NCBI RefSeq assembly: GCF_030848575.1
Contig: NZ_JAVDDX010000006.1
Location: forward strand, 62,001-126,000
Direction of reading: 5' to 3'
From: Haloarcula sp. H-GB4
GTDB lineage: Archaea > Halobacteriota > Halobacteria > Halobacteriales > Haloarculaceae
DNA: 64,000 nt
A model generated the notes under the pieces. It searched no databases. It had not been told where the DNA came from and was given only the letters and a program-made list of their open reading frames with translations. This document shows, piece by piece, positions 17,748 through 59,437 of the stretch. Numbering within the stretch: the stretch's first letter is position 1; every line of letters begins with the position of its first letter. A program made the position numbers and the translations under genes.

Positions 17748-17753
17748 GGGAGT
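17748..17753. repeat. Target-site duplication of the 2.1-kb IS (left)
   Basis: GGGAGT, repeated at 19877-19882. The two copies flank a pair of inverted repeats exactly. Confidence 0.8.
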
Positions 17754-17887
17754 CACGTTTTCGGGATCTCAAGTTCTACCAACCACTAGCTCACTGATAT
17801 GTTATTTCGACGGCAGTACCGTAAGACGAGACAGCTATGAGTTCAACAGAGATCTGAACCAGTCGATTTGGCGACCAATGTGACGAC

Positions 17888-19675
17888 TTGAAACCTCTCG
17901 GTGACGGGCTCAGAACTACGATGACTTCTGAGCAGATGTCGGCAGGTGACGACGACGCCCCCGCGCTCGCGGGGGCGATCGTCTATCACGCTGGGGAAGT
18001 CTGTGAAACCGTGGATCATCTCTGGCGTGTCCTCGGAGAGGTTTCGATTCCAGTTGACGGGCTTACCGACCACCGCCAGCAACACAAGGTCGCAAACGGC
18101 ACCGAATCGATGGCTCGAGTGTATCTCTATCAGAAGATCTACGACCTCGCCCAGAGCGAGGTCGCAGATCGCCTCGAAAGCCGGCCATCACTCCTGAAGA
18201 CACTTGATTTGGAGAAGGTACCGTCCCAGCAATCACTCTCGTACGTGTGGGAACAGTTTACCGAACAAACCAAACGGACGCTTAACACCGCAGCTACAGG
18301 TATCGCACAAGAAGCCGTTGACAGCGGCGTCGTGTTGGAAGCACGGGTTCCGATTATCCCAGGTGAAGACGATATCGAAGAGGACGGTGACGAACCGACC
18401 GCAACACGCGAGCACGTTCGAAAGCAGGGGAACAAAATTGTCGAGCTCGCCCGAAGGCATGCCTTCGGCGAGTTCGACTCTCACAGAGCCGATAACAGAG
18501 TCTACGAGGACGAACAGATCCTCGATCTGTTCGCCTCGGCATGCCTCACCCAAGGAAGCGCCCATTCGGAGGGTGAAGCTGGCTGGTTTCTCGACGAGAA
18601 CGATGCCTGTGACGACTCTACGTTCCTCCGAGTGATCAAGCAGTTCGCAATGCCGGCTGATCAGGAAGTCACTGTCCCACTCCAAAACCAACAGATCGAG
18701 GATATCGTTGCGTTTACCGAGGTATTCCGAGAGTATCTCATGGACGCGTTCGACACCGCGACCGAGAATATCCTTCAGACGATTCGGTATGAAGATCCAT
18801 TCGACGACCGCCACGTCGTGGCGGCCGTCGATTTCACCCACGTCCCCTACCACGTCTGGCCGTGGATCGACAAAGACGACCAGATCCCAAAGTCGACGTA
18901 CCCGCCTATGGTGAGCGGGTACGTCGACGACGGTGAGTTGAAGCACGGCTACACGTTCGCGACGATCACAATCGTCGGGAACGATGTTCCGATCATTTTG
19001 GGGATTGAGGGCGTCAAGGAACACTCAGACTGGGAACCAACTGAGACGCCCGCTGACTCGAAAGCAGACGTCGTTGCGCGTCTGCTTTCGAGAGCCCAGC
19101 AGTACGTCGATCTGGACGAAGTTCTGCTGGACGGTGGCTTTTACGCTAGAAACGTCCGTGCAGAGATCAACAGTCGTGGACTGTTATATACGATGCCAGT
19201 GCCGAAATACGAGTCAGATTACGAGACGATCAAGCACATCAAGAGCAAAGATGGGGTAGACGCTGCTGTTAACCACGATGTCCCCGTCGGAATCGACGGT
19301 GATGTCGATCATACTGCAGAATATCTGTACGTTCCAGCCACCAGTGACGACGCTGACGGTGAGTACGCTGTATTTGTGACGAACCGCGATCACGTCGATC
19401 CCGACGAGATCGCTCATGTGACGAACAGCTACAGCCGTCGCTGGGATATCGAAAACCAGTACAAGTCGGTGAAAGCGTACCTCCCGAAGACCTCCTCAAC
19501 CGACTACCGAGTGCGGTTGTTCAACTTCACGTTCGCAGCGTTACTGTACAATCTGTGGCGGCTCACCGACTTTCTGGTGAAAGTCGGCATAGAGGGAGAA
19601 ATCAGGTCGCCGCCAGTCGTGACCGCCAGGACGTTCGTCCGGGCGGTCGGTAACTCTCTCCGGAAAGCCGGATAA
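17888..19675 (+). CDS. Transposase, IS4-like DDE superfamily
   Basis: 595 residues in the longest form; starts at 17921 or 17936 are equally plausible. DDE-type core: VAAVDFTHVPYH (first Asp, about residue 313), VLLDGGFYARNVRAEI (second Asp, about 412) and the YSRRWDIENQYKSVK motif (Glu, about 520), the last of the Y-(2)-R-(3)-E-(6)-K type that marks IS4-like families. A hydrophobic C-terminal helix (LFNFTFAALLYNLWRLTDFLV) follows, shared with the other large transposases here. The gene holds at least six inverted repeats with 10-15 bp arms. A perfect 8-bp hairpin at 19702-19719 after the stop may act as a terminator. Confidence 0.88.
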   Translation: MKPLGDGLRTTMTSEQMSAGDDDAPALAGAIVYHAGEVCETVDHLWRVLGEVSIPVDGLTDHRQQHKVANGTESMARVYLYQKIYDLAQSEVADRLESRPSLLKTLDLEKVPSQQSLSYVWEQFTEQTKRTLNTAATGIAQEAVDSGVVLEARVPIIPGEDDIEEDGDEPTATREHVRKQGNKIVELARRHAFGEFDSHRADNRVYEDEQILDLFASACLTQGSAHSEGEAGWFLDENDACDDSTFLRVIKQFAMPADQEVTVPLQNQQIEDIVAFTEVFREYLMDAFDTATENILQTIRYEDPFDDRHVVAAVDFTHVPYHVWPWIDKDDQIPKSTYPPMVSGYVDDGELKHGYTFATITIVGNDVPIILGIEGVKEHSDWEPTETPADSKADVVARLLSRAQQYVDLDEVLLDGGFYARNVRAEINSRGLLYTMPVPKYESDYETIKHIKSKDGVDAAVNHDVPVGIDGDVDHTAEYLYVPATSDDADGEYAVFVTNRDHVDPDEIAHVTNSYSRRWDIENQYKSVKAYLPKTSSTDYRVRLFNFTFAALLYNLWRLTDFLVKVGIEGEIRSPPVVTARTFVRAVGNSLRKAG

Positions 19676-19676
19676 G

Positions 19677-20065
19677 AGAGTGATTCAACACCTGTCGCTC
19701 GCCTGCGGCAAGCCGCAGGACTCTCGGTCTGAGCACGATATCGGTTGTGCTCTCCCAATCGGTCCGTGACTTCTCGCCAACCGGCGACCAATGCATAGCA
19801 TCTCCGCGAGAACATCTCAAACTTCGTCTGATTCGACCGCTATTCGTTTGTAGACGCTCTATATCCCGAAAACGTGGGGAGTTGAGACTACAGTGGTTTT
19901 AGCGGAGCTGTGATGCGTGGTTTCGGGCGAACTTTCGAGGCGAAACTGCTTCGGATCTACTCTCGATAGTCTTCTCGTGTCGTACTACCAACTAGACCGG
20001 TGAATTTCCAAGATCCCCGACAGCGTTGCCACTCAGGAATCCGATTGCCCCGGACAGAGATCTCT
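19677..20065. other. Non-coding: IS right end and left end of transposon copy 1
   Basis: Holds the terminator-like hairpin, the right inverted repeat and target repeat of the 2.1-kb IS, and from 19880 the left end (AGTTGAGACTAC) and about 180 bp of 3' non-coding sequence of transposon copy 1. I see no gene. Confidence 0.7.
19702..19719 (+). terminator. Hairpin after the 595-aa transposase gene
   Basis: CCTGCGGC-AA-GCCGCAGG, a perfect 8-bp stem 27 bases after the stop codon. No T-run follows directly, so termination is an inference from position. Confidence 0.4.
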
Positions 20066-21823
20066 CTATCCGATTCCGGTCTCCTTCTTCAGCAGCGTGA
20101 GCGTATTGTCGGCCGTCACAATGGGTGAGTGTTCGTACTCACCCGTCAACTCAACCTGCACGAGCAGATCGACAGCTCGCCAGATCGAGTACAACAGGCA
20201 AGCGAATGCGAAGTAGAAGAACCGTAGCCCGAAATTCTTCGACGTCGTCGCCGCCATGAACCGCTTTATCGATCTGTACCCGCTCTCGATTTCCCACCGA
20301 TACCCGTACTCAGTAAGGTGCCCACTCCCGCAATTCGTCATGAACACCGAGTATTGCCGGTGGTCGTCGTGCTCGGAGTCCTCTTTCCGGCGGTAGATCA
20401 GCGTCGTCTCGTGCCACTCATTCTTTCCGAGATGGAGTTTCCGGTCGGTCTCGTAGCGGTCCTGACTCCGTTGGAGTAACCGCTTGGCTTGGGCTTTCTC
20501 GCTGGTCTGCATCCGCTTGGGAACGACGTAGGAGAGCCCGCGCTGGCTGATCATATCCAAGACGTGCTGGCTATCGAACTCCCTGTCCATCAGCACGTTA
20601 TCGACGTGGACGAGCTCTTCAGCTGAATCTAGCAAATCATCGACAATTTCTAGTCGTGACTCGCCTTTCCGTACCGGGCGGGCATCGAGGACCAGCGGGA
20701 CGGCGTTGCCGACTAACTGGACGGTCGCCCACTGGTAAGCATACTCGTCGGTCTTCTCCTTCGTCCCGATGATCTCATCCTCGTGGCCCGTGCGGTTACC
20801 TTTGAAAGGATCAGCTTCGGTAATGTCGATCGCGACGATTCCGGCTCGAAAGAACTGCTCTGTCTCCGCAACTTCGTTCAGGAGCTGAGTGATGGCCTGT
20901 CGGTACATCGCTCGCACTTGGTCAATCGAGAGGTCTCGAATCTGCTCCCGATGGGCATGCCCCAGCGGCGTCCGATCCCGAGTTGATTCGTAGACGAAAC
21001 TACGAGCCCCTTCGTTCGCAGCCAGCCGTTCGCGAAGTCCGAGATATGTCTGCAGGCCCCAGTAGGCGTTCTCGTGGATCTCACACCCCTTGCCACGGTC
21101 CAGCGAGAACGCCGGGAAGACGACACGGCTGACGTGATCGCTGATCTTCGCTGCTTCTGCCAAAACAGTCTGGTCGTCCGGATCGGTCGCCTCAGACTCG
21201 TCATCATAGTACTGGAGCTTCCGTTCCGGGTTACGGGGAACCGCAACACTGGCGTTCTGTGCGTTGATGAGGATCGTCCGAGCCGTTCTCTCGACTGTCT
21301 CACGGAGGTCGGCACTGAAGCGCTTGTTCCAACTGCGCCAGAGTGTCGACTGGTCGGGAACGGAATCAAACCCGAGCGAGCGACGGGTTTCTGAGTGTTG
21401 CCGGAGATACTCGACGAGCGCGGTTTCGTGGCCCCAGCCGTGTATCTCTTTCAGCAGGAATGCCCTGAAGAGCTGTGGCATCTCGTATTGAGTCGAACCC
21501 GGGTACTGGTCGTGGGGACTGAACTCCACGTAGGACAGTGGATACTGACAGACGAACCCCTCAACTGAGTCGTGGGCGTTGTGTTCGAACCAGATCCCCG
21601 AGACGGTCCGGATATCCTCTGTGAGCGCTGTCAGTGAACTTTGGTCGTACAGTGGCGTCGAGTCGTAGGCCGGCCAATCAACGTGTGGGCGTTGAGCGAT
21701 TCGTCGAAAGACATCACGGCGGGAAGTGTCACTCGGAACCACTAGAACTCCATGCCCCTGACTCGTGTACGGACTCCTCTCCACCGAAAGATGTGCGGCA
21801 CTGTCCGAAACGGGCCAATTCAA
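20066..21823 (-). CDS. IS4-like DDE transposase, family copy A
   Basis: 585 residues in the longest form. Similarity among the three copies begins at about residue 27 (VVPSDTS...), so the true start may be an internal GTG. Catalytic blocks: IVAIDITEADPF, VLMDREFDSQHVL and YGYRWEIESGYRSIKRF (Y-(2)-R-(3)-E-(6)-K type), then a hydrophobic C-terminal helix (FYFAFACLLYSIWRAVDLLV). Copies at 26761 and 43406 share nearly the whole sequence, with the 43406 copy the closest. It lies at one end of a block whose other genes are redox proteins, so it is the candidate mobiliser. Confidence 0.9.
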   Translation of the reverse strand: MNWPVSDSAAHLSVERSPYTSQGHGVLVVPSDTSRRDVFRRIAQRPHVDWPAYDSTPLYDQSSLTALTEDIRTVSGIWFEHNAHDSVEGFVCQYPLSYVEFSPHDQYPGSTQYEMPQLFRAFLLKEIHGWGHETALVEYLRQHSETRRSLGFDSVPDQSTLWRSWNKRFSADLRETVERTARTILINAQNASVAVPRNPERKLQYYDDESEATDPDDQTVLAEAAKISDHVSRVVFPAFSLDRGKGCEIHENAYWGLQTYLGLRERLAANEGARSFVYESTRDRTPLGHAHREQIRDLSIDQVRAMYRQAITQLLNEVAETEQFFRAGIVAIDITEADPFKGNRTGHEDEIIGTKEKTDEYAYQWATVQLVGNAVPLVLDARPVRKGESRLEIVDDLLDSAEELVHVDNVLMDREFDSQHVLDMISQRGLSYVVPKRMQTSEKAQAKRLLQRSQDRYETDRKLHLGKNEWHETTLIYRRKEDSEHDDHRQYSVFMTNCGSGHLTEYGYRWEIESGYRSIKRFMAATTSKNFGLRFFYFAFACLLYSIWRAVDLLVQVELTGEYEHSPIVTADNTLTLLKKETGIG

Positions 21824-26760: not shown

Positions 26761-28437
26761 CTAGCCGATTCCCGTCTCTTTCTTGAGCAACGTCAGCGTG
26801 TTATCTGCTGTCACAATGGGCGAATGTTCGTACTCACCAGTCAGTTCGACCTGGACGAGCAGATCGACTGCCCGCCAGATCGAGTACAGGAGACACGCGA
26901 ATGCGAAGTAGAAGAACCGTAGCCCGAAATCCTTCGACGTCGTCGCGGCCATGAATCGCTTGATCGATTTGTAGCCACTCTCAATCTCCCACCGGTACCC
27001 GTACTCGGTGAGGTGTCCGCTGCCTCGATTCGCCATGAACACCGAGTACTGCCGGTGATCGTCATGCTCGGAGTTCTCTTTCCGACGATAGATTAGCGTC
27101 GTCTCGTGCCACTCGTTCTTCCCAAGATGGAGCTTCCGGTCGGTTTCGTATCTGTCCTGACCCCGTTGGAACAACCGCTTTGCTTGGGCTTTCTCGCTTG
27201 TCTGCATCCGCTTCGGAACCACGTACGAGAGCCCGCGCTGACTAATCATCTCCAACACGTGCTGGCTATCGAACTCCCGGTCCATCAGCACTTTATCGAC
27301 GTGAACGAGGTCCTGGGCCGAGTCGAGGAGATCCTCGACGATTTCTTTCCGTGACTCACCCCGTCGGACTGGCCGCGCATCCAGTACGATGGGAACGGCG
27401 TTCCCGACCAGTTGGATCGTCGCCCACTGATAGGCGTACTCGTCGGTGTTCTCTTTCGTCCCAATTATTTCGTCCTCGTTGCCCGTTCTATCCCCGGTGA
27501 AAGGGTCGGCTTCGGTGATGTCGATGGCGACGATCCCTGCGCGGAAGAACTGCTCTGTCCCCGCGACTTCGGTCAGAAGCCGCTTGACAGTCTGCCGGTA
27601 CATCTTCCTTATCTCCGCGATGGTAAGGTTACGAATCTGTTCTCGATGAGCGTGACCCAACGGCGTCCGGTCCCGATCCGATTCGTAAACAAAGCTTCGA
27701 GCACCCTCGTTGGCGGCCAGATTCTCACGGAGCCCTAGATACGTCTGTAAGCTCCAGTAGGCGTTCTCATGGATCTCGCAGCCCTCGCCACGGTTCAGTG
27801 AGAACGCGGGGAAGACGACGTGGCTGACATAGTCAGTAATTTCCTCAGCTTGTTTTAGGACTAATTGATCGTCGGGCTCTGAGTCCTCACGATCGTCGTC
27901 ATGGTACTGAAGCTTTCGATCCGGTTCACGTGGAACCGCGACACCCGCATTCTGAGCTTTGATGAGAATCGTTTGAGCTGTGGTCTCGACGGTCTCTTGG
28001 AGATCAGCAGTGAAGCGGTGGTGCCAGCTCCGCCACAGTGTGGACTGGTTCGGAACCGATCCCAGGCCGATCTGTTCGCAGAGATTGGGGTGGTGGGTGA
28101 GGTATTCGACGAGGGTGGTCTCATGGTTCCAGCCGTGGCATTCTTTCAGCAGGAACAGCCGAAATAGCGTCTCCATTTTGTAGCTTGTCGACTCTGCGTA
28201 ACGGTCGTGTGCATCGAACTGGACGTATGCCAGCGGCAATGCGCGAACGAATGGTTCGACGGTCTCGTGTTCATTCTGGTTGAACCACGCTTCTGCGACA
28301 ACGCGGACGTCCGATTTCAGCGCTGGGAGGGATGACCGATCGAATAGTGGGGTAGAATCATACGTTGGCCAGTCGACGTAGGATTGCTGGGCGATCTGGC
28401 GGAAGACAGCATAACGAGTCTCACAGGTTGGTGCCAC
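26761..28437 (-). CDS. IS4-like DDE transposase, family copy B (more diverged)
   Basis: 558 residues. It shares the catalytic blocks of the copies at 20066 and 43406 (IVAIDITEADPF, VLMDREFDSQHVL, YGYRWEIESGYKSIKRF) but differs more in the N-terminal 150 residues. A GTG just upstream (VVAPTCETR) matches the VVPSDTS start region of the others. The AGTTGAGAC left end is present at 26574, but no matching right end is found upstream of the gene and no redox cargo follows, so this copy is a truncated or cargo-free form. Confidence 0.9.
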   Translation of the reverse strand: MAPTCETRYAVFRQIAQQSYVDWPTYDSTPLFDRSSLPALKSDVRVVAEAWFNQNEHETVEPFVRALPLAYVQFDAHDRYAESTSYKMETLFRLFLLKECHGWNHETTLVEYLTHHPNLCEQIGLGSVPNQSTLWRSWHHRFTADLQETVETTAQTILIKAQNAGVAVPREPDRKLQYHDDDREDSEPDDQLVLKQAEEITDYVSHVVFPAFSLNRGEGCEIHENAYWSLQTYLGLRENLAANEGARSFVYESDRDRTPLGHAHREQIRNLTIAEIRKMYRQTVKRLLTEVAGTEQFFRAGIVAIDITEADPFTGDRTGNEDEIIGTKENTDEYAYQWATIQLVGNAVPIVLDARPVRRGESRKEIVEDLLDSAQDLVHVDKVLMDREFDSQHVLEMISQRGLSYVVPKRMQTSEKAQAKRLFQRGQDRYETDRKLHLGKNEWHETTLIYRRKENSEHDDHRQYSVFMANRGSGHLTEYGYRWEIESGYKSIKRFMAATTSKDFGLRFFYFAFACLLYSIWRAVDLLVQVELTGEYEHSPIVTADNTLTLLKKETGIG

Positions 28438-43405: not shown

Positions 43406-45112
43406 CTACCCGATTCCAGTTTCTTTCTTCAGCAGTGTCAGCGTATTGTCGGCTGTCACGATCGGCGAGTGCTCGTACTCCCCAGTCAATTCAACCTGGA
43501 CGAGCAGATCGACTGCCCGCCAGATAGAGTACAGCAGACACGCGAACGCGAAGTAGAAGAACCGAAGCCCGAAATTCTTTGATGTAGTGGCAGCCATGAA
43601 TCGCTTTATCGACCTGTAGCCACTCTCGATTTCCCACCTGTAGCCATACTCCGTGAGGTGGCCACTGGCCCCATTCGTCATGAACACCGAGTACTGCCGA
43701 TGATCGTCGTGTTCAGAGTTCTCTTTGCGTCGGTAGACCAGCGTCGTCTCGTGCCACTCGTTCTTCCCGAGATGGAGTTTGCGGTCAGTCTCGTACCGGT
43801 CCTGGTCACGCTGAAGCAATCGCTTGGCCTGGGCCTTCTCGCTGGTCTGCATCCGCTTGGGAACGACGTACGAGAGTCCGCGCTGGCTGATCATCTCCAG
43901 AACGTGCTGGCTATCGAACTCCCGATCCATCAGCACGTTATCGACGTGAACGAGGTCCTCAGCCGAATCCAGCAAGTCCTCGACGATTTCCTTGCGTGAC
44001 TCGCCTTTCCGCACGGGGCGAGCATCGATGACGAGTGGAACAGCGTTACCGACCAGCTGGACTGTCGCCCACTGGTAGGCGTATTCGTCGGTCTTCTCCT
44101 TCGTTCCGATGATCTCGTCCTCGTGGCCCGTACGGTCGCCCGTGAAGGAGTCAGCTTCGGTGATGTCGATTGCGATGACCCCCGCTCGAAAGAACTGCTC
44201 TGTCTCCGCAACTTCGTTCAGAAGCCGAGTGATGGCTTGCCGGTACATCTCTCGCATTTGGTCAATCGAGAGATCGCGAATCTGCTCGCGATGGGCGTGA
44301 CCTAACGGCGTTCGCTCACGAGTCGACTCGTAGGTGAAACTACGAGCGCCCTCGTTCGCGGCGAGCCGCTCGCGAAGTCCGAGATACGTCTGTAAGTCCC
44401 AGTAGGCGTTCTCGTGTATCTCACAGCTGTCGCCACGGTCCAGCGAGAACGCCGGAAAGACGACACGGCTGACGTAGTCAGTGATCTTCGCTGCTTCTTC
44501 CAAAACGGTCTGTTCGTCCGGATCGGTCGCACTAGACTCGTCGTCGTGGTACTGGAGCTTCCGTTCCGGGTCACGAGGAATCGCAACACCGGCATTCTGT
44601 GCGTTGATGAGAATCGTCCGCGCCGTCCTCTCGACTGTCTCACGGAGGTCAGCACTGAATCGCTGGTTCCAACTGCGCCAGAGTGTCGACTGGTCGGGGA
44701 CGGAGTCGAACCCGAGCGAGTGACGGGGTCCCGGGTGCTGCCGGAGATACTCGACGAGCGCGGTTTCGTGGCTCCAGCCGTGTATCTCTTTCAGCAGGAA
44801 CGCCCTGAAGAGCTGTGGCATCTCGTATCGAGTCGGACCAGAGTACTGGTCGTGGGAATTGAACTCCACGTAGGATAGTGGATACTGACAGACGAACCCC
44901 TCGACCGAGTTGTGAGCGCTGTGTTCGAACCAGATCCCCGAGACGGTCCGGATATCCTCTGTGAGCGCTGTCAGTGAACTTTGGTCGTACAGTGGCGTCG
45001 AGTCGTAGGCCGGCCAATCGACGTGCGGGCGTTGAGCGATTCGTCGAAAGACATCACGACGGGAAGTGTCACTCGGGACCACTAGAACACCCTGCCTCTG
45101 ACTCGTGTCCAT
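43406..45112 (-). CDS. IS4-like DDE transposase, family copy C
   Basis: 568 residues, very close to the copy at 20066. Catalytic blocks IAIDITEADSF, VLMDREFDSQHVL and YGYRWEIESGYRSIKRF are intact, as is the hydrophobic C-terminal helix. Probably active. It occupies the left end of transposon copy 2 and is transcribed away from the redox genes. Confidence 0.9.
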   Translation of the reverse strand: MDTSQRQGVLVVPSDTSRRDVFRRIAQRPHVDWPAYDSTPLYDQSSLTALTEDIRTVSGIWFEHSAHNSVEGFVCQYPLSYVEFNSHDQYSGPTRYEMPQLFRAFLLKEIHGWSHETALVEYLRQHPGPRHSLGFDSVPDQSTLWRSWNQRFSADLRETVERTARTILINAQNAGVAIPRDPERKLQYHDDESSATDPDEQTVLEEAAKITDYVSRVVFPAFSLDRGDSCEIHENAYWDLQTYLGLRERLAANEGARSFTYESTRERTPLGHAHREQIRDLSIDQMREMYRQAITRLLNEVAETEQFFRAGVIAIDITEADSFTGDRTGHEDEIIGTKEKTDEYAYQWATVQLVGNAVPLVIDARPVRKGESRKEIVEDLLDSAEDLVHVDNVLMDREFDSQHVLEMISQRGLSYVVPKRMQTSEKAQAKRLLQRDQDRYETDRKLHLGKNEWHETTLVYRRKENSEHDDHRQYSVFMTNGASGHLTEYGYRWEIESGYRSIKRFMAATTSKNFGLRFFYFAFACLLYSIWRAVDLLVQVELTGEYEHSPIVTADNTLTLLKKETGIG

Positions 45113-57287: not shown

Positions 57288-57896
57288 TCACACCGTGATG
57301 ATCGTGCTTCCCGGATTGTCTCCGCGTTCGTAATTGGTGATTGCGACGACTAGGCGAAGACACAGTGCGAGGAAGACCTGCGCTCGTGCGTGGACGCGGC
57401 CTCGGGCGTGCGTTCGCCCGAGGCCGCAGTCCTTCACTGATTCGTTGGTTCGTTCCACTCCAGTGCGGCGATTGTACGTCTGGTTTAGTATCGATTGTTT
57501 CAGCTGTACATCCTCGCTGTGTTTCTCAATGCGGTCCTCGACCCTGTATTCGATATCTTTCGGGTCGTCAGCGTTTCTAGCATTGTACGGGGCGACTGGC
57601 ACGACCCCTGTGGCCAGCAGGTGGTCGTGCCAGTCGAGGGTGTCGTAGGCGCTGTCACCGACCATCCAAATCGGCTTGGCGACGGCGAGCGCGTCACAGG
57701 TGACGCGCATCGCTGTCTCTTCTGGCGCTTGTTTGCTCTCGGTGAACTCCGCTGCAATCGGTATTTTTTGTCCGGTCGAAACAATCGTACAGCCGTAGCC
57801 GTAGTAGTACTCTTCATCGGTTGGATCGTAGCATTTCGACGCATCTTGGTCAGCGGGCATCGCCCTCACGTCGGTTGAATCGATGCAGTAGGTCAA
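57288..57896 (-). pseudogene. Transposase C-terminal half (interrupted)
   Basis: About 202 residues (continuing upstream in frame to the insertion): CIDSTDVRAMPADQD (first Asp), IWMVGDSAYDTLDWHDHLL (second Asp) and YNRRTGVERTNESVKDCGLG (Glu of an R-(2)-E-type end), so an IS4/IS5-like DDE enzyme. The N-terminal half is at 59042-59437. Four long inverted repeats lie inside this half. Confidence 0.85.
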
Positions 57897-57920
57897 GTCG
57901 AGCAGGCCGCGCCGTAGTAC

Positions 57921-59024
57921 TTAGGAGAAGAACTGCAAGCGAGAGCTGAGGAATTCGTCGATCCATGATTTGGCGAAGCTCAGCCGAGACGTGAGTTGTT
58001 CGAACAGTTCTGAGACGAGAGCGCGGAACTCGTTCGCGCTCTCGACAATCAGTGGAGAGGCTTCCCATTTCAGACTCTTCCAGATCTGCTCGATTGGGTT
58101 GAGGTCTGGGGATCCAACCGGTAAGAAAACGAGATCAATCCCGAGTTGATGGGCACGCTTGCGTGTGAATTCGCACGTGTGCGCGAAGTGATTATCCAAA
58201 ACGAGCAGAATCCGCGTTGCGGGATTCTGCTCGCGGATCCTCTCTAAACACTCACAAATCCGTTCTTTCGTCTGGTCTTCTGGGAAACTGACCACACTCT
58301 CACCGTTGAGTGCGTAGAAGCCGACCGCTGGTTCGAAAATCTTCACCAGCGGTCGTTCATGATGCGGATCATCGACATACCACAACCGGCGCGAGTTATC
58401 GTACGGCTGTGGATGCGATGCATCGAAAAAGCCGACAACAGTGCCTCCATCTGTGCAGACATCCTCATCGACGACCCAGCCTTCCTCGTCGTCGTCTTCG
58501 CGTTTATTGTGTGGTTCCTCAGTATCCTCGGCGAGCGCGTCGTTGACGCGCTCGTCGAGAATTTCTTCGGCATTATCTGGCCGTGACGGACGTTTTGTCC
58601 GTGGAATTGCGTATGACAATCCGAGATCCTTGAGAAACTCACCCAGGTAGACTGGATGGTACTCAACGCCGAACTCGTCGTTGATGAGATGCTGGATTTC
58701 CTGTGGTTGCCACGGTTGGCCGTCACGGAGCATCTCCAAGAGTTGTTCCTGCTCGTCTTCGCCGAGCTTCGGGGGACGTCCGTCCCCGAAGTTCGGCGTT
58801 AATTGGCCAAGACCACCTTCGTTCCAGCGACGTGCCCACCGACTACCCGTCGATTCAGATTTGCCAACGCGGTCAGCTGCCTCCTCAAGGCTGTCGCCCT
58901 TGTAGAGATTTTTCACGAACGTGAGGCGGCGGACGACCTTCGGATCGTCCGCCTCCGATAGCAACCGATTGAGATCATCTTCACTCAGATGGCGGACGAT
59001 CTCTTTGCGTCGGTCCCCACTCAT
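57921..59024 (-). CDS. IS630-family transposase
   Basis: 367 residues. The N-terminal helix-turn-helix pair (SLEEAADRVGKSESTGSRWA, PWQPQEIQHLINDEFGVEYH) is followed by a DDE domain: VGFFDASHP (first Asp), RILLVLDNHFAHTCEFTRKRA (second Asp) and LNPIEQIWKSLKW (Glu), the typical IS630/Tc1-mariner ending. It sits inside another IS between hairpin arms (57897-57920 and 59064-59086). Appears intact, with several internal inverted repeats. Confidence 0.93.
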   Translation of the reverse strand: MSGDRRKEIVRHLSEDDLNRLLSEADDPKVVRRLTFVKNLYKGDSLEEAADRVGKSESTGSRWARRWNEGGLGQLTPNFGDGRPPKLGEDEQEQLLEMLRDGQPWQPQEIQHLINDEFGVEYHPVYLGEFLKDLGLSYAIPRTKRPSRPDNAEEILDERVNDALAEDTEEPHNKREDDDEEGWVVDEDVCTDGGTVVGFFDASHPQPYDNSRRLWYVDDPHHERPLVKIFEPAVGFYALNGESVVSFPEDQTKERICECLERIREQNPATRILLVLDNHFAHTCEFTRKRAHQLGIDLVFLPVGSPDLNPIEQIWKSLKWEASPLIVESANEFRALVSELFEQLTSRLSFAKSWIDEFLSSRLQFFS

Positions 59025-59041
59025 TGCAACACCTTCTCAGG

Positions 59042-59437
59042 CTATCCCCATAACTTCACTTGGGTACTACGGGCGGCCTGCTCGACGAGGTGGTCAAAGA
59101 CTTCGTCGACGACGTGTTCGAGGTCAGTAAGGAACCGATCGACCGCGTCTCTTGACGGCGGTCGATCGAAGCCACAGCTCAGCCAGACAACCGTGTTCTG
59201 AAGCTCCCGCTCAGCAGGACGAATTCCGTAGATATCACGGTAATAGCAGTGGAGGAACCCACGCAGCATCTCTGGTGGTTTATGTTCTCGTGTTCGCCCC
59301 GTCTCCGCCGGGGCGAACACGTCGAACTCGCCAAGAAACTCGAAGGAGAGATGCTCAAACAACGCTAACGTCTCGGTCTCCGCGACATTGAAGAACGACT
59401 CTACCGAAGGCTCATTCTGCAGGGTCGCTGAGTCCAT
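59042..59437 (-). pseudogene. Transposase N-terminal half (interrupted)
   Basis: 131 residues from ATG 59437, including the helical N-terminal region FLGEFDVFAPAETGRTREHK, PPEMLRGFLHCYYRDIYGI and a DNA-binding-like SRDAVDRFLTDLEHV. The frame ends in the IS630 insertion. A perfect 13-bp inverted repeat lies at 59289-59321. Confidence 0.83.

Follow-up and report, generated by a model that had tools for sequence, protein, structure and literature searches.

Hairpin arrays in haloarchaeal transposase genes and a possible origin in template switching during repair synthesis

The window analysed here, a stretch of 64,000 nucleotides from Haloarcula sp. H-GB4 (contig NZ_JAVDDX010000006.1, positions 62,001 to 126,000), contains a complete insertion sequence (IS) whose DDE transposase gene, encoding 595 residues, carries 11 near-perfect hairpins within its coding sequence. 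The arms of these hairpins change slowly and covary among relatives, similar arrays are restricted to certain classes of element in certain hosts, and the process that keeps them nearly unchanged seems to work on DNA rather than on messenger RNA. The best-supported reading, to which we lean tentatively and with somewhat less than even confidence, is that template switching, in the course of repair synthesis across elements on the move, has left the hairpins as its footprint in the DNA. No earlier description of hairpin arrays in the coding sequences of IS was found in the open-access literature, subscription journals lying outside the search.

The insertion sequence and its hairpins

The element has the terminal inverted repeats, target duplication and transposase that define a DDE-type IS, and its terminal motif also flanks three relatives (L084, L085 and L018).

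17754..19876, plus strand: complete insertion sequence, 2123 bp, with 14-bp terminal inverted repeats and a 6-bp direct repeat
17748..17753: left copy of the target-site duplication, GGGAGT
19877..19882: right copy of the target-site duplication, GGGAGT
17754..17767, plus strand: left terminal inverted repeat, CACGTTTTCGGGAT (14 bp)
19863..19876, minus strand: right terminal inverted repeat (14 bp)
17888..19675, plus strand: 595-aa DDE transposase, distant from ISH3 (PF01609, 27.1 bits, cut-off 23)

The protein falls below the curated cut-off for the ISH3 family (NF033541, 75.7 bits against 225), and PHROGs returned no match for it. The ISH3 family of Halobacterium (ISH3B, ISH27) likewise consists of hairpin-rich haloarchaeal DDE transposases, with 10-11 hairpins per 1167 bp, but its proteins have about 390 residues and share 26% identity with the window protein over 156 residues. 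The ISH7 and ISNCY elements encode transposases of about 600 residues, as the window element does, but ISH7A and ISH7B are without hairpins; identity to ISH7A is 24% (E 1e-24, from a single comparison with no curated model). Four relatives at 91% identity lie in genomes of the same genus, CP050017 carries a 91% homologue annotated as ISNCY, and the named records with relatives include Haloarcula japonica and Halomicroarcula rubra.

Hairpins were scored by a uniform scan for ungapped stems (+1 per pair, -2 per mismatch, loops of at most 20 nt, threshold score of at least 9). The 1788-bp transposase gene has 11 at this threshold, or 6.2/kb, with loops mainly of 2-7 nt.

17956..17977: hairpin 1, 10 bp perfect, loop of 2
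18136..18170: hairpin 2, arms of 15 nt with 1 mismatch (19 nt in L084)
18440..18478: hairpin 3, a stem of 18 pairs that includes a G-T pair and has a single bulged C
18511..18533: hairpin 4, 10 bp perfect
18801..18831: hairpin 5, arms of 15 nt (18801-18815/18817-18831), 14/15 paired
18892..18928: hairpin 6, perfect stem of 14 bp, confined to clade A (see below)
18954..18983: hairpin 7, arms of 13 nt with 1 mismatch
19057..19092: hairpin 8, perfect stem of 14 bp, confined to clade A
19386..19413: hairpin 9, arms of 12 nt with 1 mismatch
19566..19587: hairpin 10, 9 bp perfect
19621..19648: hairpin 11, arms of 13 nt with 1 mismatch

An earlier note on this DNA had listed six inverted repeats in the gene. 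All six are present where it placed them, although the stem it began at 18802 really has arms of 15+15 nt and that at 18446-18472 is the inner part of hairpin 3, and the array is larger than first noted by five hairpins (4, 7, 9, 10 and 11). Directly past the transposase stop codon, at 19702-19719, there is a perfect 8-bp hairpin, CCTGCGGC-aa-GCCGCAGG, which possibly belongs to the same set or serves as a 3' end signal.

The same note had judged chance very unlikely, and two null sets of 400 sequences each, both preserving the protein and its codon usage, bear this out: codon shuffles of the gene carried 0.44 +/- 0.65 hairpins (maximum 3), and shuffles that also kept the junction dinucleotides 0.92 +/- 0.88 (maximum 4). 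Among host genes, sampled as 355 open reading frames (ORFs; about 400 kb) on two contigs of this genome, C1 and C7, there were 0.27 hairpins/kb and at most 3 in any gene. The equal density in shuffled sequences or host genes that the note had named as refuting evidence was thus not found, the densities being clearly unequal at 11 hairpins against at most 4 and 6.2/kb against 0.27/kb. The host density rules out a general property of the genome, and the even distribution of the hairpins along the gene rules out a 5' attenuator. As an explanation, chance, composition or codon usage is barely credible: the high GC content and the RNY-like codons, which favour palindromes, are all that speaks for it, whereas it is ruled out as a cause by the codon and dicodon shuffles and is opposed as well by flanking genes and by hairpin-free sister groups of equal GC content. 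All window genes with more than 3 hairpins/kb are transposases, and when the sampled plasmid contigs are included, family matches identify all genes denser than about 3.5/kb as transposases (L066 and L064 among them) with the exception of L080, a hairpin-rich ORF adjoining an IS1595 match, which is read as antisense to a transposase.

Slow, covarying and strand-symmetric arms

Hairpin positions of the window gene are common to relatives at 71-92% protein identity. Clade A (about 91% identity) has 11-12 hairpins and clade B (71-76%) mostly 8-11, many of them shared by both clades; hairpin 1 is kept in both with its innermost pair compensated (G-C/C-G), and the arms of hairpin 5 are identical across 11 relatives except for one base in L084 and L017. 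In sister groups of comparable or larger distance there are 0-3 hairpins, and in a clade at about 50% identity none or one, the hairpin-free sisters being equal in GC content.

The proposal in the earlier note that the hairpins constrain synonymous sites is strongly supported. Between clades A and B, four-fold synonymous sites differ by 0.138 in shared arms and by 0.573 outside them; the corresponding values are 0.025 and 0.191 within clade A, and 0.075 and 0.431 within clade B. The result is replicated in 26 sequences of the ISH3 family, which carry about 6.3 hairpins/kb: at 70-85% identity the values are 0.069 in arms and 0.460 outside. Altogether, four-fold sites evolve 4-8 times more slowly inside arms than outside them. 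In the hairpin-poor sisters the equivalent columns are not slow (0.397 in arm columns against 0.405), and the slow rate of the arms is therefore not driven by the protein.

Covariation of the arms in IS relatives, which the note had suggested as a check, was examined by taking the structure from half of the sequences and testing it on the held-out half, with shared hairpins only; an earlier test that pooled unshared hairpins had given almost no signal, which became clear once the test was so limited. In the held-out sequences, which as pairs of sequences are not independent, the arms covary above every shuffle. Watson-Crick cells reached 0.591 in ISH3 (shuffle maximum 0.533) and 0.829 in the window family (0.816), and compensatory cells numbered 96 (shuffle maximum 73) and 17 (14), respectively. 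Relatedness inflates covariation in the shuffles; when partners were slid as a control, pairing fell to 0.26-0.30 in ISH3 and to 0.17-0.33 in the window family.

Some changes are confined to one arm. In clade A the second arm of hairpin 8 has gone from CTGGACAG to CTTTCGAG, four contiguous changes that make it an exact inverted copy of the first arm at the cost of replacing Asp with Ser, the ancestral state being taken from relatives with no formal reconstruction. Among close ISH3 relatives the changes counted arm by arm are 0:5, 5:0 and 0:3 at some hairpins and 3:2 and 2:3 at others, with births and losses not polarised. The one-arm changes, at hairpin 8 and in ISH3, resemble quasi-palindrome correction by template switching. 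Three frame-broken transposase copies of the window family (L106, L110 and L122) still contain 7-8 hairpins, and such copies could be used to date the decay of hairpins after the death of a copy.

Structure selected in messenger RNA should show pairs that covary, as these do in held-out data, and G.U better tolerated than A.C on the sense strand, which was not seen. Mismatch states one step from Watson-Crick pairing were G.T and A.C at 65:65 in ISH3, 28:19 in the window family (not significant), 99:117 overall, where shuffles give a ratio of 0.90, and 33:28 at synonymously repairable sites; six NRC-1 genes taken alone, with GT 10 and AC 1, are a small exception to this symmetry. Sense-strand folds were more stable than codon shuffles in 50/50 hairpin-rich genes tested (z -2.4 to -10), and the gain in stability over shuffles was alike on the two strands (sense -2.50, antisense -2.38, p = 0.17). 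The near-equality of G.T and A.C and the equal folding gain place the constraint on DNA, or on RNA of both strands, and they disfavour a structure of the sense mRNA alone.

One rival, which we regard as somewhat unlikely, is self-restraint at the RNA level, in which mRNA hairpins slow ribosomes or recruit RNA-binding proteins or nucleases, transposase is kept scarce, and the hairpins are maintained by selection. The stability of every sense-strand fold tested and the minority signal of the NRC-1 genes are consistent with it. So are published data from Halobacterium salinarum, in which transposase mRNAs are abundant and the proteins seldom detected, 3 of the 4 mobilome proteins detected (of 33) being TnpB (PMC10134880); in the present survey TnpB is hairpin-poor and the DDE genes of ISH elements are rich. 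The suggestion in the earlier note that hairpins reduce translation fits these data, but the strand symmetry speaks against a classic sense-mRNA structure, with G.U no better tolerated than A.C and antisense folds gaining equally, and the hairpins are distributed over the gene rather than concentrated at its start. IS10, IS200 and ISPpu9 likewise have structures in their transposase mRNAs, hairpins that may limit transposase. The ISPpu9 structure is a sense-RNA structure of the 5' untranslated region (PMC8450116), whereas the present hairpins are many, lie along the coding region and lack G.U tolerance. The genome-scale ordered structure of RNA viruses is also dense through coding sequence and restricts synonymous change, but it works as RNA and is not strand-symmetric DNA.

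Alternatively, sense and antisense element RNAs might both need hairpins, for example in kissing contacts that initiate antisense pairing. Strand symmetry would follow, and in H. salinarum antisense RNAs to transposases are common and antisense ribosome-associated RNAs are reported to be over-represented at transposases (PMC6523106). A single hairpin would suffice for this purpose, however, and we consider the explanation quite improbable. Where a palindrome is nearly perfect, the short reads that it yields can align to either strand and may mimic antisense RNA, and part of the antisense signal in that study could stem from the hairpins.

Two further roles put forward in the earlier note fare less well. 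Nothing was found in support of termination of transcription entering from outside, and a role in single-stranded DNA, in the form stated there, is doubtful: elements of the IS200/IS605 class are those known to move as single strands, and their TnpB and Y1 genes show little or no enrichment. The single-strand signal of that class, end hairpins recognised by Y1, also has no match here, the hairpins lying inside a DDE gene.

Distribution among elements and hosts, and a possible origin

Haloarchaeal DDE transposases of the ISH3, ISH8, ISH10, ISH11, ISH28, IS1595, IS630, IS5 and IS6 types have a 5- to 20-fold excess of hairpins. In a survey of 37 genomes of the same family, hairpins per kb in transposases, their shuffles and flanking ORFs were, respectively, 5.16, 0.59 and 0.63 for IS1595; 3.05, 0.40 and 0.80 for DDE_Tnp_1; 2.81, 0.41 and 1.20 for IS630; and 2.18, 0.38 and 0.50 for IS6. 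TnpB was not enriched over its flanks (0.64, 0.18 and 0.71), and Y1 genes had 0.90/kb. The ORFs used are longest open frames, of which a few lie on the wrong strand; L383 was excluded. On pNRC100 there are 11 hairpins in ISH3B, 10 in ISH27-2, 7 in ISH10, 6 each in ISH28 and ISH11, and 5 in each ISH8 copy; ISH7A and ISH7B have 0. Haloarchaeal elements with at least two near-identical copies were rich in 11/11 cases and single-copy elements in 10/24 (our own tally; one-sided Fisher test, about 0.0008, worked out by hand).

Outside the haloarchaea, members of the same phylum average 0.36 hairpins/kb and mostly have zero. There are a few exceptions at low GC content, in genomes that we take to be Methanosarcina-like (G109 and G145). 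Three DDE_Tnp_1 genes of low-GC (0.33-0.38) non-haloarchaeal archaea (L342, L347 and L348) have 2-4 hairpins against 0.1-0.2 expected. Deinococcus was examined because the template-switching idea pointed there, and its DDE elements fit: the eight tested from Deinococcus radiodurans have 2.78 hairpins/kb against 0.10 expected, with 2-4 in each of the IS4- and IS630-type elements and 0 in the IS3 of this species. Elements of D. wulumuqiensis and Deinococcus sp. are also hairpin-rich, the closest having positions in common with ISDra7. In the remaining bacterial sample, which is small, the IS taken from E. coli, alphaproteobacteria and cyanobacteria show no enrichment, and values per kb are 0.15 in E. 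coli K-12, 0.12 in Komagataeibacter, 0 in Thermus and 0.30 in Acaryochloris; rhizobial IS21, IS110 and ISNCY, five proteobacterial IS630, two cyanobacterial elements and one Persicobacter element have zero. A property of IS at large is ruled out by TnpB, Y1, ISH7-type elements, the sister clade at about 50% identity and the sampled bacterial IS other than those of Deinococcus, none of which has a hairpin excess.

The explanation that we tentatively prefer is that excision of a DDE element leaves a break at the donor site, which a cell that has several genome copies and repairs breaks heavily would mend by synthesis with the element on a sister chromosome as template. At a near-palindrome the growing strand could then fold onto itself and be extended along its other arm, as in quasi-palindrome correction, each such event turning one arm into a perfect inverted repeat of its partner, and repeated events would keep the arms perfect and co-evolving while the lineage remains mobile. 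The proposal predicts hairpins in DDE elements and not in TnpB, in active and not dormant lineages, with strand symmetry and host dependence. The residual mismatches are strand-symmetric, as quasi-palindrome correction would leave them, and the covarying pairs, the changes limited to one arm, the mostly short loops, the richness of multi-copy elements, the flank-level density of TnpB and the result in Deinococcus also speak for the proposal. In model organisms, quasi-palindrome correction likewise rewrites one arm as the inverse of the other, across short loops and without regard to strand; to our knowledge it has not been described as clustering within a single class of mobile element and being kept over long evolutionary distances.

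Several points weigh against template switching. The cyanobacterial and Thermus elements (6 tested) have none or one hairpin, and their hosts are polyploid; one-arm cases are few, other differences between close pairs falling in both arms, with births and losses not polarised; and host genes have no excess at their chance quasi-palindromes, which calls for a far stronger process in IS. The repair synthesis, the template switching itself and the link to transposition and genome copy number are, moreover, steps that we infer, and selection for pairing, which is possible at the DNA or RNA level, would equally yield slow and covarying arms. Selection at the DNA level might act against mis-repair, if folded single strands anneal and recombine poorly with other copies and thereby spare genomes that are rebuilt from broken pieces. 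That multi-copy elements are richest, that the two strands are alike and the arm constraint so strong, and that both haloarchaea and Deinococcus repair many breaks would suit this idea, but clade A is rich and yet has one near-full-length match per genome, and hairpins could just as well provoke breaks; we think it unlikely.

It is conceivable, and to us a serious if tentative proposition, that the arrays are an undescribed convergent property of active DDE IS in haloarchaea, Deinococcus and, weakly, Methanosarcina-like archaea, continuously rewritten into perfect hairpins through transposition-coupled repair synthesis or through the escape of hairpin-laden copies from recombination. If this is true, many haloarchaeal and Deinococcus transposase genes are under a strong and overlooked constraint on top of the protein code, one that would distort estimates of synonymous rates, gene annotation that relies on folds, and the strand-specific profiling of RNA or ribosomes at IS genes. 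Hairpin density would then be a possible sequence-only gauge of recent IS activity, and the effect of transposition, polyploidy and break repair on mobile DNA would become directly testable, as would the reason why haloarchaeal transposases are transcribed yet rarely detected as protein.

Other transposase genes in the window

Three hairpin-free transposase-like genes of 558-585 aa lie near the element at 17754-19876 (20066-21823, 26761-28437 and 43406-45112). They are distant homologues at 33-37%, and the product of 20066-21823 is 33% identical to ISH7A. A second hairpin-rich transposase and a split one lie elsewhere in the window.

57921..59024, minus strand: IS630-type transposase, 6 hairpins
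57288..57896, minus strand: C-terminal portion of an IS5-type transposase that the IS630 element interrupts, 3 hairpins
59042..59437, minus strand: N-terminal part of the split IS5-type transposase, 2 hairpins

In this region (57288-59437) the IS630-type element has apparently inserted into the IS5-type transposase gene, and both are hairpin-rich.
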